A program made the position numbers and the translations under genes. Below are positions 48,368 to 62,283 of a DNA stretch of 64,000 nucleotides, piece after piece. Under the pieces are notes generated by a model. It worked only from the letters and a program-made list of their open reading frames with translations. It ran no database searches and was not told where the DNA came from. Each line of letters starts with the position of its first letter. Within the stretch, counting starts at the first letter, position 1. Origin of the DNA: Paenibacillus sp. FSL K6-3182 (GTDB lineage: Bacteria; Bacillota; Bacilli; Paenibacillales; Paenibacillaceae); contig NZ_CP150265.1 of assembly GCF_037976325.1 (NCBI RefSeq), forward strand, positions 1,917,501 to 1,981,500, in the 5' to 3' direction.

Positions 48368-48396
48368 TTGACCTGTTCTCATTAAAGAACTAAAAT
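48368..48396 (+). promoter_or_regulatory. Promoter of the sinR-like gene
   Basis: TTGACC (48368-48373) and TAAAAT (48391-48396) are 17 bases apart. The spacer is almost entirely filled by the 16-bp inverted repeat. Confidence 0.75.
48375..48390. promoter_or_regulatory. SinR-type operator in the sinR-like promoter
   Basis: GTTCTCATTAAAGAAC is an inverted repeat with GTTCT half-sites. The SinR consensus of Bacillus is GTTCTYT (established knowledge). Placement inside the promoter spacer suggests autorepression. Binding is inferred. Confidence 0.7.
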
Positions 48397-48482
48397 ATAC
48401 ATATTGTCTGTTATAAAGTGTTAGTTTGTGTTGTTTTTGTTCAGCTTTACGTTTAGATCTAAACTGGCCGAAGGAGAATATT

Positions 48483-48893
48483 ATGATAGGGGAACGGATT
48501 AAAAGTCTACGGGAAAAAAAGGGCTACTCGATCACGAAGCTTGCTGACCTAGCGGGCGTATCCAAGTCCTACTTGAGCTACATTGAACGCAATATGCAGA
48601 ATAACCCATCTCTTCAGGTAATGGCAAAAATAGCAGCTCCACTAGACTCAAACATTGAATATTTACTCGGAGAAGAGCATTTACCAAAGATTCATATGGA
48701 TGAAACGTTGGATGAGGAATGGCGAGTCATTATTAAAAATGCGGTTGATGAAGGTATGAGCAAGGGTGATTTCCAAGCACTAAAAGACTTGATCCGTTCA
48801 AATATGTGGAAGGAAAGCAGAACGGAGACGAATGTCTACTCTGCTGACAAAAAGAAATCATCAAATATTATTATTCTTCATATCGATAACTGA
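48483..48893 (+). CDS. sinR: SinR/SlrR-like biofilm master regulator
   Basis: ATG 48483 follows GAAGGAGAAT. The 136-residue product has an N-terminal HTH (IGERIKSLREKKGYSITKLA, then GVSKSYLSYIERNMQNNPSL) nearly identical in pattern to Bacillus SinR, and a C-terminal SinI-interaction segment (LDEEWRVIIKNAVDEGMSKG and DFQALKDLIR). SinR represses matrix genes, and SinI or SlrR binds the C-terminal helices to modulate it. Here it lies directly before epsA, codirectional; in B. subtilis the related slrR is beside epsA. No sinI gene is seen nearby. SinR or SlrR identity cannot be fully separated. Confidence 0.82.
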   Translation: MIGERIKSLREKKGYSITKLADLAGVSKSYLSYIERNMQNNPSLQVMAKIAAPLDSNIEYLLGEEHLPKIHMDETLDEEWRVIIKNAVDEGMSKGDFQALKDLIRSNMWKESRTETNVYSADKKKSSNIIILHIDN

Positions 48894-48920
48894 CATGGAA
48901 TAAAAAGTCGGGAAAGTGTA

Positions 48921-48949
48921 TTGACATGTTCTATATAAAGAACTAATAT
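48921..48949 (+). promoter_or_regulatory. eps operon promoter
   Basis: TTGACA (48921-48926) and TAATAT (48944-48949) with a 17-bp spacer form a near-consensus sigma-A promoter ahead of epsA. Its spacer contains the operator at 48928-48943. Confidence 0.85.
48928..48943. promoter_or_regulatory. SinR-type operator in the eps promoter
   Basis: GTTCTATATAAAGAAC is a 16-bp inverted repeat. The first and last five bases match those at the sinR promoter exactly, and it lies at the same place in the spacer. Confidence 0.8.
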
Positions 48950-48958
48950 TGTGTTATT

Positions 48959-48974
48959 GTTCTTTATAACAAAC
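48959..48974. promoter_or_regulatory. Second SinR-type half-site cluster near epsA start
   Basis: GTTCTTTATAACAAAC: its left half is a perfect GTTCTTT. It lies just downstream of the -10 and would add to repression. Confidence 0.55.
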
Positions 48975-48993
48975 ATAGTAAGCAGGTGTGCAA

Positions 48994-49746
48994 ATGGAAG
49001 GTAAACGGCTGGAGGATTCACAAGCATCGCATCATGATCAAGACAGAGTAAAGATTAAAGAAATAAATCTCAAAGCGTTATTTCTCACGGTGAAAAAACG
49101 TCTGTGGATAGTCATGGTCATTACTATTCTCTTTACAGTCGCTGCTGGCTTCTTTAATTCAAAGCCTGAAACGCCAATGTATGTATCAAACACGCGGATG
49201 ATCGTGGCTGCTTCCTCGGATATGATGGGCACAGTGAGGGTATTGTTCAGAGAGCCAATCGTTTTGGATCAGGTAATTGAAAAGCTCGGTCTTAATCTTT
49301 CGGCAGCAGCATTACGAAGCCAAATTAGAGTAGACAGTGTAGATGCCTCACTTGTTACCGTAGTTTCTGTTATGGATACCGATCCAAGGCTTGCAGCTGA
49401 GATCGCGAATACAGCAGTGGAAACCTACAGGCAAGTAGCATCGGAAGTGCTTGGAATTACGAGCATCAGATTGTTGACGAAGGCAGAAGAAAATCCTTTC
49501 CCGATTAATGAAAAAAGCAATCGTATCGTGTACATTGCCTTCTTGCTTGGCATGATTTTGAGCGTAGGGTTAGTATTCCTGCTAGATTCACTCGATGATT
49601 CTATCAAATCAGAACGAGAAGTGGAAGAGCTGCTCGGCCTAACGATGCTTGGTCAAGTTAATAAAATTAAACGAAAAGATTATGCTAGCAGTCGTTTGAA
49701 AAAACAAAAAAGCATTTCTGTAAGAGGTGAGACGATTGGTTCGTGA
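48994..49746 (+). CDS. epsA: EpsA-like polysaccharide chain-length regulator (Wzz/YveK family)
   Basis: ATG 48994 follows AGCAGGTG; a GTG at 48988 lies too close to it. The 250-residue product has two membrane helices, near residues 37-53 (LWIVMVITILFTVAAGF) and 175-195, flanking an extracytoplasmic domain. The layout is that of Wzz/YveK modulators, which activate the BY-kinase partner and set polymer length. The next gene overlaps it by 11 bases. The operon is led by the SinR-type operator. Confidence 0.82.
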   Translation: MEGKRLEDSQASHHDQDRVKIKEINLKALFLTVKKRLWIVMVITILFTVAAGFFNSKPETPMYVSNTRMIVAASSDMMGTVRVLFREPIVLDQVIEKLGLNLSAAALRSQIRVDSVDASLVTVVSVMDTDPRLAAEIANTAVETYRQVASEVLGITSIRLLTKAEENPFPINEKSNRIVYIAFLLGMILSVGLVFLLDSLDDSIKSEREVEELLGLTMLGQVNKIKRKDYASSRLKKQKSISVRGETIGS

Positions 49747-50392
49747 ACGGCAAAAGGTGTCAAAGTCTTATGTAAACAAAAGCTTACTCGCTTATATTAA
49801 TCCGCATGGCATCGTTTCGGAGCAATATCGAACCATTCGAAACAATATTCATTATGCAGCGAGCGGCGGCAAGGTGCGTTCTTTACTGGTTACTTCGCCC
49901 TCAGAGGGCGAAGGGAAATCGACAGCGGCAGTCAACTTAGCAGTCTGTATGGCACAACGTGGCGATAGAGTGCTGATCATCGACGCAAATTTTCGCAATC
50001 CAATCATAAACAAAATCTTTAATGTGCAAACATCGCCAGGCTTGTCGAATGTTTTAGGGCAGCAGCTCGAAATTCGTGAAGCGATCTATAATACGGAGGT
50101 CGAAGGACTCGATATTTTGCCAAGCGGGCAGCGCCTCTATAATTCGACAGAACTGCTCGATTCACAGCTGATGGTAGATGTAATGGCATTTGCAGATGAG
50201 CATTATGACATGGTTCTGCTGGATTGCCCGCCGGTTCTTGGCGTTCCGGATACGAATGCGCTGGTAAGTAAATGTGACGGCGTACTCTTGCTTTTAAAAC
50301 ATGGGAAAACACAGCAGGAGCATGCACTGGAAGCGAAACGTGCCTTGTTGTTTGCAAAAGCTAATATATTGGGTGTCATACTAAATAAGTAG
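49736..50392 (+). CDS. epsB: EpsB-like tyrosine autokinase (BY-kinase)
   Basis: TTG 49736 has AAGAGGTGA just upstream and is preferred to the GTG at 49727. The 218-residue product has Walker A SPSEGEGKSTAAVN, Walker A' VLIIDANFRNP and Walker B MVLLDCPPVLGVPD, the layout of CpsD/EpsB kinases that pair with a YveK-type activator. The C-terminus stops at GVILNK, with no visible tyrosine cluster, so autophosphorylation sites of the usual kind are lacking. It overlaps epsA by 11 bases and is followed by the EAR-like region. Confidence 0.8.
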   Translation: MVRERQKVSKSYVNKSLLAYINPHGIVSEQYRTIRNNIHYAASGGKVRSLLVTSPSEGEGKSTAAVNLAVCMAQRGDRVLIIDANFRNPIINKIFNVQTSPGLSNVLGQQLEIREAIYNTEVEGLDILPSGQRLYNSTELLDSQLMVDVMAFADEHYDMVLLDCPPVLGVPDTNALVSKCDGVLLLLKHGKTQQEHALEAKRALLFAKANILGVILNK

Positions 50393-50428
50393 AGCGTTTG
50401 ATGATATCAATCGGATAGCGCTTTTTTT
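50393..50428 (+). terminator. Possible attenuator/terminator after epsB
   Basis: AGCG...GATGATATC...AGCGCT can fold weakly and is followed by seven T. It lies at the start of the EAR-like region. Strength is uncertain. Confidence 0.4.
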
Positions 50429-50438
50429 ACGGACTAAT

Positions 50439-50454
50439 GTTCTTTATAAAGCAC
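50439..50454. promoter_or_regulatory. SinR-type site inside the epsB-epsC interval
   Basis: GTTCTTTATAAAGCAC resembles the operator of the eps promoter but with one changed base in the right half. No clear promoter overlaps it. Confidence 0.4.
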
Positions 50455-50489
50455 GTTAAGTGTTTGTAAAGGCAATTTCATTCGGTAAT

Positions 50490-50700
50490 GTCTCCTCACC
50501 GTTATCAATGGAGGCACTCGGCCATACTGTGGGTTGCAAAAAAACCTTAGACGCGAGTCGTCAAGAGTGTGGTGTGAGGCGGGGTTCGATGCCCCTAGAC
50601 TCGATTTTAGAGTCTTTAACTAAATGGTTTTGTATAAAGCCTTTTAGTTAAACACTCTAAGAGTGTAGCAGAGATATTAAGCTTGATTCTCTTAAGCCAA
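50490..50700 (+). ncRNA. EAR-like (eps-associated) structured RNA
   Basis: A long noncoding interval between epsB and epsC, the exact place of the EAR element of Bacillus eps operons, which promotes readthrough of terminators (established knowledge). Visible structures: CGAGTC (50535) pairing with GACTCG (50598) around a GGCGGGG-TTCGATG-CCCC hairpin; a strong stem AACTAAA/TTTAGTT with inner GGTTT/AAAGCC at about 50619-50649; and ACTCT/AGAGT about 50654. I could not compare it with an EAR consensus, so the assignment rests on position and structure. Boundaries are approximate. Confidence 0.6.
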
Positions 50701-50746: not shown

Positions 50747-52573
50747 TTGACGTATCGACAAAGATTGTCTTTATTGATTTTAATCGACTCCATTATCGTT
50801 TTTACCGCCATTTTTTTTAGCAGGTTATTGCTAAGTGCTTCACTTGATGTGGTGACTGCACCCATTGTAATCAGCTCGATTACTTTGCTGTTAAGCCATC
50901 ATTTCTTTTCCTTCTACTACAATTTGTATAAGAAGGCATGGGAATATGCGAGTGTAGGGGAGCTATTGATTATTACAAAGGCCGTTTCCTTCTCGATCTT
51001 TGCAGCAGCGATTATTCAGCAAATTGTGATGCAGGATGTGTTTTTCAGGCTGCTGGCCGTGACCTGGATGATTCATATGCTGTTAATCGGAGGTTCGAGG
51101 TTATGCTGGAGAATTTTCCGTGGCAGCTATCAGAAAAATGCTGGATTGCGTAAAAGCACGTTAATTGTTGGTGCTGGCTCTGCGGGTACGATGCTTGCCC
51201 GTCAGCTCCTTAGCAACAATGATATGGAGCTATTGCCAACTGCGTTCATAGATGACGATGTAAACAAACATAATCTAGATATTATGGGTATTCCGGTGTT
51301 GGGCGGAGTTGAAAGCATTGCGAAGGTGGCGCTTGATTATGAGATTAACAATATCGTTATTGCGATACCCTCACTGAGCAAAAAACAGCTCAACACGATT
51401 TTTAGCGAATGCGCTAAAACGAAAGCAAAAACACAAATCATTCCTATGCTTGAGGATTTGGCTACGGGCAGAGTGTCGGTAAGTCAATTTCGTGATGTTC
51501 AGGTTGAGGATTTATTAGGGCGTGAGCCTGTAGAGCTCGATATTGAGAGTATTTCAGGTTACGTTACCCAAAAAGTCGTTATGGTAACAGGCGCTGGGGG
51601 CTCGATTGGATCCGAGGTGTGCAGGCAGGTTTCGAGGTTTTTACCGGAGAAACTTATTTTGCTTGGACATGGAGAGAACAGCATCTATTCCATTGAGATG
51701 GAGCTGAAAGAGCTTTACGGACATACAAAAATAGAATTTGTGACAGAAATCGCCGATATGCAAGACGCAAATAAAATGCTGGCCGTTATGCAAGCTCATC
51801 GTCCGCAGGTCGTTTATCATGCAGCAGCACATAAGCATGTTCCACTGATGGAGAGAAATCCAGAGGAAGCGTTCAAAAATAACGTAATGGGAACCTTGAA
51901 TGCGGCAAGAGCAGCCAGCCAAGCTCGCGTGGATACGTTTGTCATGGTATCGACCGATAAGGCGGTTAATCCAACCAGCGTTATGGGCGCGACCAAAAGG
52001 ATTGCGGAGATGGTCATTCAGCATATGGACCGGTTCAGCAATACCAAATTTGTAGCGGTAAGATTCGGCAATGTTTTGGGCAGCCGCGGCAGCGTTATCC
52101 CGCTGTTCAAGAAGCAAATAGAGAAGGGGGGACCCGTAACGGTTACACATCCGGACATGGTTCGCTATTTTATGACCATTCCTGAAGCTTCAAGGTTAGT
52201 CATTCAAGCTGGTGCACTTGCCAGAGGCGGTGAAATCTTCGTCCTCGATATGGGTGATCCCGTTAATATTACCGATCTTGCACAAAATGTCATTCGGATG
52301 TCGGGCTACTCGGTCGAGGAAATCGGAATTGAGTACACAGGAATTCGCCCAGGCGAGAAGCTATTCGAAGAAATGCTTAAGGATGATGAAATCAATGAAA
52401 AGCAGGTTTATCCAAAAATCTACATAGGCAAATCATCCGAGATTTATTTTGAACATATTGAAGAAATTATTGCCCTGCACGGGGGAATGAGCAAAGCAGA
52501 ATTGCGTACAAGGCTGCTGGATCTAGCGAATAATGTCGTAGAGCTTCCTGGATTTGCATCAGTAACAGGTTAA
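50747..52573 (+). CDS. epsC: EpsC-like nucleotide-sugar 4,6-dehydratase (CapD family)
   Basis: TTG 50747 has AAAGGGTGA upstream. The 608-residue product begins with four membrane helices (residues 1-110), a Rossmann-like segment ([17 protein letters not shown] near 140), then the SDR dehydratase from about 280: [53 protein letters not shown] and a long C-terminus. Such proteins convert UDP-GlcNAc to 4-keto sugars at the membrane. It follows the EAR-like region and lies 25 bases before galU. An isolated GTTCTTT lies across its start. Confidence 0.85.
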
Positions 52574-61001: not shown

Positions 61002-61017
61002 GTTCGTTTTATAGAAC
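61002..61017. promoter_or_regulatory. Possible SinR-type operator of the second unit
   Basis: GTTCGTTTTATAGAAC: the minus-strand half is GTTCTAT and the whole is a loose inverted repeat. A hairpin GAACAAAAA/TTTTTGTTC follows (61014-61036). Confidence 0.45.
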
Positions 61018-61068
61018 AAAAACAAGATTTTTGTTCGCTGTGAGTTCATCAATATGAAGGAGAAATTC

Positions 61069-62283
61069 ATGAATAACGACGTCTCACTCCAAAAGGAAGA
61101 ACTGTCTGACGAATTGAGACTGCTTCTTTCGATCCTTGTTATGGATCATGGAGCTAAAATAACTTTTGATATACAGGAGCTGCTCCATAAGACGGATTGG
61201 GACAAATTTATAGAGTTAGCAAGACATCATCGTGTTTTTCCCACTCTCAATCTCAAGCTGCAAAAAATGAAATCAACCGATATCCCTACTTTTGTAACTC
61301 AAATGTTTCATCGCGACTATTATCGCAACACTCTGCAGATGTTGGCACTCAGCGGAGAGATGGAACAGCTGGCTAAGATGTTCTCTGAGAACGGCATTCG
61401 TTCGCTCTTTCTTAAAGGGCCAGTCATTGCTGCTGACTTATATGGAGACGTATCACTTCGTACATCATGTGATCTGGATTTCCTAATTCCAATCAAGGAT
61501 CTAGAACGTGCTGAAGCCCTACTCGTATCGCTTGGGTATGTAAAAGACGATTATATCGAATCGGTCTTAAATGACTGGAAATGGCGTCATCATCATACGG
61601 CCTTTGTTCATCCAGGCAAAGCGATCAAGGTTGAGGTTCATTGGCGACTTAATCCTGCACCTGCAAAGGAACCGAAATTTGATGATTTATGGGAGCGTAG
61701 AAGACAGAGCTCACTCATTTCAAGACCAATCTATTATCTCGGTAGAGAAGATTTATTTATGTTTCTCGTTTCCCACGGCGCTCGCCATGGTTGGTCCAGA
61801 CTTCGTTGGCTGCTAGATATTAAACAACTAGTAAATCAAAAAGTAGATTGGCCGAAATTAATTCGTTTGCTGAGGAAGCATCAATTTGCTCATATCGGGG
61901 GGCAAGCGCTTCTATTAGTAGCTAGATTAATGGCAACTCCCTTACGTGAAGAAATGAAGCCGCTAATAACGGACAGAAAGGCAGAATGGTCAGCAGAGGA
62001 CGCAATGTATTATGTTCATCGAATCATAAACTTACATACTCCGCCCATACCGGAGGAAGTAGATCGCTATCATAAAAAATATTTGTTTGGGCTACTTACA
62101 ACGAGACAAAAGTTTTTTTTTATAGCGAGTTTTCTTTATCCCTACCCAGAAGATGCAAAAACGCTTCCGCTGCCTAAACCGCTGCACTTTCTTTATTTTC
62201 CGCTTCGTCCACTTATATGGGGTTGGCGAATGTTGAAAAGGCGCCGCGAGAAAAAGCTGCTATTGAATAGGAGAACGAGATGA
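61069..62283 (+). CDS. Nucleotidyltransferase family protein (PF14907-like)
   Basis: ATG 61069 follows AAGGAGAAATT; the earlier ATG at 61054 is part of that RBS. The 404-residue product has an uncharacterised nucleotidyltransferase fold, with RSLFLKGPVIAADLYGDVSL and the catalytic acidic pair in TSCDLDFLIPIKDL. A second conserved segment is KVEVHWRLNPAP. Relatives occur in polysaccharide clusters and, in Paenibacillus, in lasso peptide loci; no lasso precursor is seen here. It overlaps the next gene by 4 bases. Confidence 0.75.
   Translation: MNNDVSLQKEELSDELRLLLSILVMDHGAKITFDIQELLHKTDWDKFIELARHHRVFPTLNLKLQKMKSTDIPTFVTQMFHRDYYRNTLQMLALSGEMEQLAKMFSENGIRSLFLKGPVIAADLYGDVSLRTSCDLDFLIPIKDLERAEALLVSLGYVKDDYIESVLNDWKWRHHHTAFVHPGKAIKVEVHWRLNPAPAKEPKFDDLWERRRQSSLISRPIYYLGREDLFMFLVSHGARHGWSRLRWLLDIKQLVNQKVDWPKLIRLLRKHQFAHIGGQALLLVARLMATPLREEMKPLITDRKAEWSAEDAMYYVHRIINLHTPPIPEEVDRYHKKYLFGLLTTRQKFFFIASFLYPYPEDAKTLPLPKPLHFLYFPLRPLIWGWRMLKRRREKKLLLNRRTR

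Follow-up and report, generated by a model that had tools for sequence, protein, structure and literature searches.

Palindromes of the SinR-operator type occupy the promoter spacers of a SinR-like gene and of the neighbouring eps cluster in Paenibacillus

The stretch of DNA analysed here, referred to as the window, comprises 64,000 nucleotides of the genome of the soil bacterium Paenibacillus sp. FSL K6-3182. It carries an eps cluster that is headed by a gene for a SinR-like regulator, followed by epsA-, epsB- and epsC-type genes, an EAR RNA and, further on, a nucleotidyltransferase gene; the coordinates of these features and of the putative regulatory elements are collected in Table 1. A divergent gene for an APH-family kinase (PF01636, 47391-48329) shares its intergenic region with the SinR-like gene.

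Table 1. Genes and candidate regulatory elements of the SinR-like gene and eps region, in positions of the window
Feature	Position	Strand	Remarks
Promoter P1 of the SinR-like gene	48368..48396	+	-35 TTGACC 48368-48373, 17-nt spacer, -10 TAAAAT 48391-48396
Candidate operator O1, GTTCTCATTAAAGAAC	48375..48390	+	occupies the P1 spacer; exact GTTCT-N6-AGAAC
Secondary degenerate element, GTCTGTTATAAAGTGT	48406..48421	+	conserved GTNYGTTAT; 31 bp after O1
SinR-like (Tyr33) regulator gene, heads the eps cluster	48483..48893	+	136 aa; HTH_3 55.9 bits
C-terminal tail SNIIILHIDN of the SinR-like protein	48861..48890	+	follows the single hook, ends the protein
Promoter P2 of eps	48921..48949	+	-35 TTGACA 48921-48926, 17-nt spacer, -10 TAATAT 48944-48949
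Candidate operator O2, GTTCTATATAAAGAAC	48928..48943	+	occupies the P2 spacer; exact GTTCT-N6-AGAAC
Secondary element, GTTCTTTATAACAAAC	48959..48974	+	31 bp after O2
epsA-type gene, Wzz / chain-length protein	48988..49746	+	PF02706 30.5 bits, above cut-off; TIGR01006 90.9 bits, below 296
epsB-type gene, tyrosine autokinase	49727..50392	+	TIGR01007 163.1 bits, above the cut-off of 108
Terminator-like hairpin and T tract after epsB	50391..50424	+	-10.9 kcal/mol, z -2.35; unflagged by a simple terminator scan
Fourth operator-like site, GTTCTTTATAAAGCAC	50439..50454	+	one mismatch; between epsB and the EAR RNA
EAR (epsC) RNA, RF01735	50483..50595	+	113 bits, gathering score 42; full-length, between epsB and epsC
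epsC-type gene, polysaccharide biosynthesis protein (NDP-sugar dehydratase/epimerase type)	50747..52573	+	PF02719 408 bits
Fifth operator-like site, GTTCGTTTTATAGAAC	61002..61017	+	one mismatch; 3' of promoter-like TTGACA (60965)...GATAAT
NTP_transf_5 family nucleotidyltransferase gene, eps cluster	61054..62283	+	PF14907 208.7 bits; preceded by the site at 61002

A preliminary description of this DNA had placed two sites in 17-nt promoter spacers, at the same relative position, and re-reading of the sequence showed both to be correct to the base. Promoters P1 and P2 share one geometry, in which the -35 hexamer is followed by a single T, the 16-bp palindrome and the -10 hexamer, the T and the palindrome together making up the 17-nt spacer; in a consensus promoter scan each promoter matches 10 of 12 consensus bases. 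Exact GTTCT-N6-AGAAC occurs in the window only as O1 and O2, two copies against 0.06 expected, and a count of two was reached in none of 100 shuffles; a chance origin of the pair is ruled out by these figures together with the conservation of the sites in relatives. Sites with up to two mismatches, by contrast, number 27 in the window against 25.4 expected, a chance-like count that disqualifies them as a list of regulon members, so that the signal comes from the exact sites and from where they stand, not from degenerate ones. The exact pattern GTTCT-N6-AGAAC occurs 12 times genome-wide against 6 for the reversed control, and the form with an A/T core, GTTCTHWWWWDAGAAC, five times against none, with seven of the 12 exact matches having cores other than A/T.

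O1 and O2 share their 16-bp arrangement with the inverted-repeat oligonucleotide bound best by B. subtilis SinR, with a Kd of about 300 nM (PMC3163267). Both sites carry the exact GTTCT half-site, at 48375 and 48928, with the halves spaced as in this published oligonucleotide; in the left half GTTCT is followed by CA in O1 and by AT in O2, and not by the YT of GTTCTYT-type half-sites. The earlier naming of the sites as SinR-type operators gains support from this arrangement, from their placement, from their conservation and from a change of the half-site that accompanies a change of residue 33 in two relatives, as described below. The sequence evidence thus supports O1 and O2 as SinR-family operators, whose position at the two promoters would allow a bound protein to block RNA polymerase.

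A scan of named genomes with the 136-residue protein gave 29 loci, of which the 27 of the Paenibacillus group (two of them labelled Bacillus sp.) were used and the two of the Bacillaceae (L082 and L083) were handled apart; with the window, 28 loci were examined. One of these, L055, is of the same species as the window and adds little, and since the named loci overlap with the genus genomes considered below and the genomes are related, the counts are not independent. O1 is an exact GTTCT-N6-AGAAC in 28 of 28 loci, and the TTGACC hexamer with a 17-nt spacer is found in 26, the spacer measuring 18 nt in L062 and L064, where TTGACTTT stands before the site. O2 lies within a TTGAC promoter at the same spacing in 27 of the 28 loci, being exact in 26 and having one mismatch in L063; it was not found in L081, a metagenome piece that ends 158 bases past the gene match. 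When 20 loci were aligned, the bulk of both leaders outside these elements proved mostly less conserved.

A secondary element follows each operator at a distance of 31 bp, which corresponds to about three helical turns of DNA. The element after O2 is the third half-site reported earlier at 48959, and it is real and conserved, GTTC being present at +31 in 26 of 27 readable eps promoters and at +33 in L076. The element after O1, which the preliminary description missed, has its conserved GTNYGTTAT at +31 in 26 of the 28 loci; in L078 and L081 it is displaced by 1 nt. The spacing is not one of whole turns in some two-site regions, such as that of G006 (45 bp).

Across the genus, 181 A/T-core sites were counted in 31 genomes with a window-type gene (control 7) and 14 in 20 genomes without it (control 6), a difference with a Mann-Whitney p of 2e-9, a value that overstates the independence of the counts since the genomes are related. 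Three of these 14 sites are in G014 and 11 in eight other genomes. The context was read for eight of the 11 (L176-L183), leaving out second sites of G022, G030 and G047: four fall in a single GCTGTTCT...AGAACAGC inverted repeat and seem unrelated, a fifth is found 2.7 kb from a sinR copy of G030, and three were without placement.

Two further operator-like sites of the eps cluster, also missing from the preliminary description, were found. The first lies between epsB and the EAR RNA, and a site with at most one mismatch is present between epsB and epsC in 27 of the 28 loci, L081 being too short to reach this region. The RNA itself belongs to the EAR family by its score over the RF01735 gathering score and by its position between epsB and epsC; it differs from the known element in that the full-length match is closely preceded by a terminator-like hairpin and a conserved SinR-like site. 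The order at 50391-50595 is thus hairpin, site and EAR RNA, with the candidate operator directly before the antitermination RNA. EAR RNAs were detected in the window by Rfam, in 12 loci by motif and in three by Rfam, all of one branch; nine loci of the other branch, scanned with Rfam, gave no hit, and the motif search, used alone, gave no match in L074, L077 and L081. The genome holds two copies, the second (G000:C1:6203545-6203655) lying away from the present eps cluster, and the B. subtilis control genome was also positive.

The other additional site precedes the nucleotidyltransferase gene, and exact sites are found before the equivalent gene in L133-L136 and in G014. This site at 61002 has the variant half-site GTTCG in place of GTTCT, a variant that recurs in L220:3755 and 5855 (reverse strand) and in L174:15336, with CGAAC in G014.

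The best solved relative of the window protein is B. subtilis SinR (1b0n, E = 2.6e-26), to which its HTH aligns without gaps. The two share this HTH and a weak SinI-type helical region, which in the window protein scores 24.4 bits against the Pfam SinI-domain cut-off of 31.4; they differ in the side of the tree on which they fall, and a true SinR is encoded elsewhere in the genome. All 28 window-type proteins have Tyr as residue 33 of the recognition helix. This residue is Ser in SinR and Lys in SlrR, and has been linked to the altered specificity of SlrR (PMC3163267). In a tree of 43 proteins, which has long branches and two rows with neither Tyr33 nor Ser33, 26 Tyr33 rows stand apart from 15 Ser33 (SinR) rows with support of 100/99, and each side contains both Bacillaceae and Paenibacillaceae. 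Given the invariant Tyr33, the tree split and the SinI-domain score below cut-off, an assignment of the window protein as a SinR ortholog was rejected. An assignment as SlrR was rejected too: like slrR, its gene adjoins eps and has a SinR-type operator in its promoter, but the protein reaches 88 bits with the SlrR family model NF046032 against a cut-off of 250, has Tyr33 and not Lys33, lacks a second SinI-like hook and bears the SNIIILHID tail. NF046032 was discarded as a discriminator, since the true SinR of the strain scores 89 bits under the same cut-off and the model cannot separate the two proteins.

The tail SNIIILHID is present in all 28 window-type loci (orthologs L055-L081), with codon third positions varying among the 20 aligned. 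Among the wider homologs listed (P0086-P0120 included), 82 of 120 fit a loose form of it, and the others listed have variants (for example SKIIILQID or SNIIIFHID) or none; P0118 retains the tail though Pfam SinI is unmatched. A structure prediction of the window protein has a mean pLDDT of 51.5, too low to be informative, and leaves the tail without structure.

The true SinR of the strain is encoded on the opposite strand (G000:C1:1993909-1994241), 28 kb away at the other end of the eps cluster; it has Ser33 and a SinI domain of 50.4 bits, above the cut-off of 31.4. Convergent with it lies a gene for a SinI of 53 residues (L020:12734-12895; G000:C1 about 1993.5 kb; 37.7 bits against 31.4) that is preceded by an exact Spo0A box, and the pair belongs to the SinI/SinR module type. 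Among 51 genus genomes, 31 have a window-type gene and all 31 of them have SinR; where a single contig holds both genes (28 genomes), SinR is encoded on the opposite strand, 17-35 kb downstream. None of the 31 combines a window-type gene with the absence of SinR, nor does any of three further genomes of the family with the best window-type scores (G224, G168 and G147). Of 40 loci read for SinR, the strain's own included, 37 gave SinR and three (G017, G028 and G002) did not. Ser33 is present in 37 of 37 readings and a SinI motif lies beside SinR in 33, the exceptions among the 37 being G014, one G050 copy, one of three G030 copies and G020. An exact Spo0A box, TTCGACA, stands about 230 bp before the SinI motif in 33 of 33 cases, as against 3.5% of 200 trials with letter-shuffled sequence; outside the genus it precedes the motif in two of three genomes (G224 and G168, not G147). 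Autoregulation of the true sinR is not supported as a rule: only 16 of the 37 readings have an exact site in the 400 bp upstream, and several of these sites face a divergent gene.

Bistable cell fate has a textbook example in the SinI/SinR/SlrR switch, which was worked out in B. subtilis. Compared with the B. subtilis epsA-O system (PMC3163267, PMC4238804, PMC10134886, PMC8481266), the Paenibacillus locus is alike in having SinR-type eps operators beside a gene of the SinR type, SinI, a predicted control of sinI by Spo0A and an EAR RNA. Judged from these comparisons of sequence, the Paenibacillus circuit is a genuine variant of the SinI/SinR/SlrR-eps-EAR circuit known from B. subtilis, and a conserved one. 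The two differ in layout. The SinR-like gene of the window is co-directional with eps, whereas in the B. subtilis-like loci L207, L208 and L211, and in the more distant L209 and L210, an slrR with Lys33 is divergent from epsA. The operator here lies between -35 and -10; in L207-L211 one palindrome lies upstream of the eps promoter of the consensus scan, outside the spacer, with half-sites also on the slrR side. At the B. subtilis eps promoter SinR overlaps sites of the activator RemA (PMC4238804, PMC8481266), while the spacer placement in the window predicts direct blocking of the polymerase in place of competition with RemA.

In L083 (Bacillus sp. MRMR6) and in L212 a Tyr33 gene adjoins eps but, unlike in the window, is divergent from it and lacks the SNIIILHID tail. 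L083 falls on the Tyr33 side of the tree and has an exact site upstream of epsA; L212, outside the sample of the tree and with the family label of the B. subtilis-like loci, has TTGACA C GTTCTTTATAAAGAAC TATGAT, again a spacer-filling site, with a second site 62 bp on. Beside the eps genes of the EAR-bearing loci L213-L215 and L217 neither a site nor a SinR-like gene was found, and L216 has a site without such a gene. In the open-licence literature we found no description of SinR control of eps in Paenibacillus with this layout; one paper on P. polymyxa eps mentions SinR as a regulator of B. subtilis (PMC7911366).

Several genomes bear on the reading of the operators. G014, which serves as a natural test, has an eps cluster and SinR and lacks the window-type gene; its epsA promoter is nevertheless TTGACA-C-GTTCTATATAAAGAAC-TAAAAT. 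The +31 element is present in a weak form, and further sites lie before epsC (one mismatch), before a nucleotidyltransferase-type gene and before an asparagine-synthase-like gene. This one genome indicates that the operator does not need the window-type protein, and that the +31 element does not need the Tyr33 protein. In G168 (L218, L222) and G147 (L219, L223) residue 33 is Asn in SinR and His in the protein at the head of eps, which has no tail. In their eps promoters TATACT or TATAAT comes after TTGACA-C-GTTCGTTATAATGAAC; the site keeps its place in the spacer, and the fifth base of the half-site is changed, which looks like a natural switch of specificity. No GTTCT-N6-AGAAC with up to one mismatch was found before epsA in these two genomes, and no operator was seen before their head gene. 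As they are one lineage in which both proteins have changed, they support a reading by the SinR family and do not say which protein reads the site. The coupling of residue 33 to the fifth base has exceptions, as shown by G224, where the head protein has Tyr33 and SinR has Ser33, the eps site is GTTCTATATAAAGAAC and the head gene's own site is GTTCGTTATAAAGAAC. A search for the variant site GTTCRWWWWWWYGAAC finds the eps sites of G168 and G147, and also six sites in the genome of the window (control 1).

The preliminary description had suggested the adjacent SinR-like protein as the blocker of both promoters. That assignment does not sit well with a true SinR 28 kb away that is accompanied by SinI and an exact Spo0A box, with the retention of the operator in the same spacer of G014, where no adjacent gene is present, or with Tyr33 in place of Ser33. 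The presence of SinR in 31 of 31 genomes with the gene, together with the G014 operator, makes SinR the likelier main repressor. We consider it fairly probable that the true SinR would bind and repress at these sites, and that the adjacent Tyr33 protein would act as an SlrR-like partner or modulator.

In such a circuit, a SinR-family dimer in the spacer would cover promoter DNA needed by sigma-A and RNA polymerase, so that the SinR-like gene and eps would be repressed together, and the weaker element 31 bp downstream could let a tetramer bridge two sites on the same face of the DNA. A 17-nt spacer is already optimal; a protein bound there should thus repress and not activate, and MerR-like activation through the spacer was set aside. 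Spo0A~P would raise SinI and SinI would remove SinR; as SinI is encoded beside SinR behind a Spo0A box, Spo0A~P would lift the repression. The SinR-like gene and eps would then switch on together, and the Tyr33 protein might modulate SinR and so feed back on the switch, as SlrR does in B. subtilis.

Some observations weigh against SinR as main repressor with a Tyr33 partner. The HTH of the Tyr33 protein is close to that of SinR, and the protein may bind the same sites; the co-occurrence of the two genes could come from descent as one cluster; G014 is a single case, in which no SinI was detected; G168 and G147 have a head gene without a visible operator-bearing promoter; and the secondary elements in general are degenerate. 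In a possible but weaker reading, the adjacent protein would directly repress its own gene and eps through O1 and O2, with no need of a distant SinR. Its gene adjoins both sites, which stay with it across the 28 loci examined, its HTH aligns to SinR gap-free, the Tyr33 gene of L212 lies beside an eps promoter with a spacer-filling operator, and in G168 and G147 residue 33 of the head protein changes along with the operator. In the same two genomes, however, residue 33 of SinR changes as well, and the sites kept in G014, the true SinR in every genus genome with the gene, Tyr in place of Ser at position 33 and a SinI-type domain below cut-off make direct control by the neighbour unlikely.

The two proteins might also act jointly, as co-repressors or in a mixed tetramer. 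SinR would then occupy the palindrome, the Tyr33 protein would take the degenerate +31 element, and the ratio of the two would set the output. Each promoter indeed combines one perfect palindrome with one degenerate element at the same spacing, the variant half-site GTTCG is found in L220 and at 61002 of the window (CGAAC in G014), and a SinR-SlrR heterotetramer on one pair of each kind of site has been discussed (PMC3163267). Yet the +31 element of G014, weak as it is, exists despite the absence of a Tyr33 gene, and we regard joint occupancy of this kind as quite unlikely. That some other regulator uses the sites, or that they belong to the promoter or the RNA and have nothing to do with SinR, could be argued from the chance-level degenerate matches in the window and the seven exact genome matches with other cores; set against the match to the published SinR operator (PMC3163267), the conservation of both half-sites, the enrichment of the sites in genomes with these proteins and the change of the half-site together with residue 33, it is very improbable.

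Paenibacillus arranges the same switch parts in another way, with the operator inside the spacers of the regulator and eps promoters, and the Tyr33 lineage, marked by the conserved tail, offers a defined regulator to investigate. A broader picture can be sketched, which as a whole we hold to be doubtful. In it, the Bacillales would have a second, old SinR-like lineage, mostly with Tyr33 and separate from both SinR and SlrR, that sits at matrix operons. Together with true SinR, this protein would make up a ratio-sensing switch in Paenibacillus, both reading shared twin operators made of a perfect palindrome within the promoter and, three turns downstream, an element with a variant half-site; the fifth base of the half-site would be read by residue 33. 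The SNIIILHID tail would be a tag for regulated degradation or docking, and the operator before the EAR RNA would couple repression to antitermination.

The conserved sites point to a small regulon consisting of eps, an internal promoter of the eps cluster, a lasso-peptide-like cluster and a gene for an AMP-binding enzyme. Genes of the asparagine-synthase, HPr-kinase-like, PqqD and transglutaminase-like types adjoin sinR (L020:13573-17541), and two exact sites lie between sinR and this group, which is possibly a lasso-peptide-like cluster under the same control. In the genome of the window, an exact site at L021:5012-5027 lies upstream of the AMP-binding-enzyme gene (Pfam), which is followed by an acyltransferase gene; among the matches listed for this distant site, the downstream gene starts alike in five of nine relatives (L124-L128, not L129-L132). 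In Neobacillus bataviensis (L082:3093-6348), a SinR-like protein with Gln33 is encoded divergently from tapA-, sipW- and tasA-like genes, with a one-mismatch site between them.
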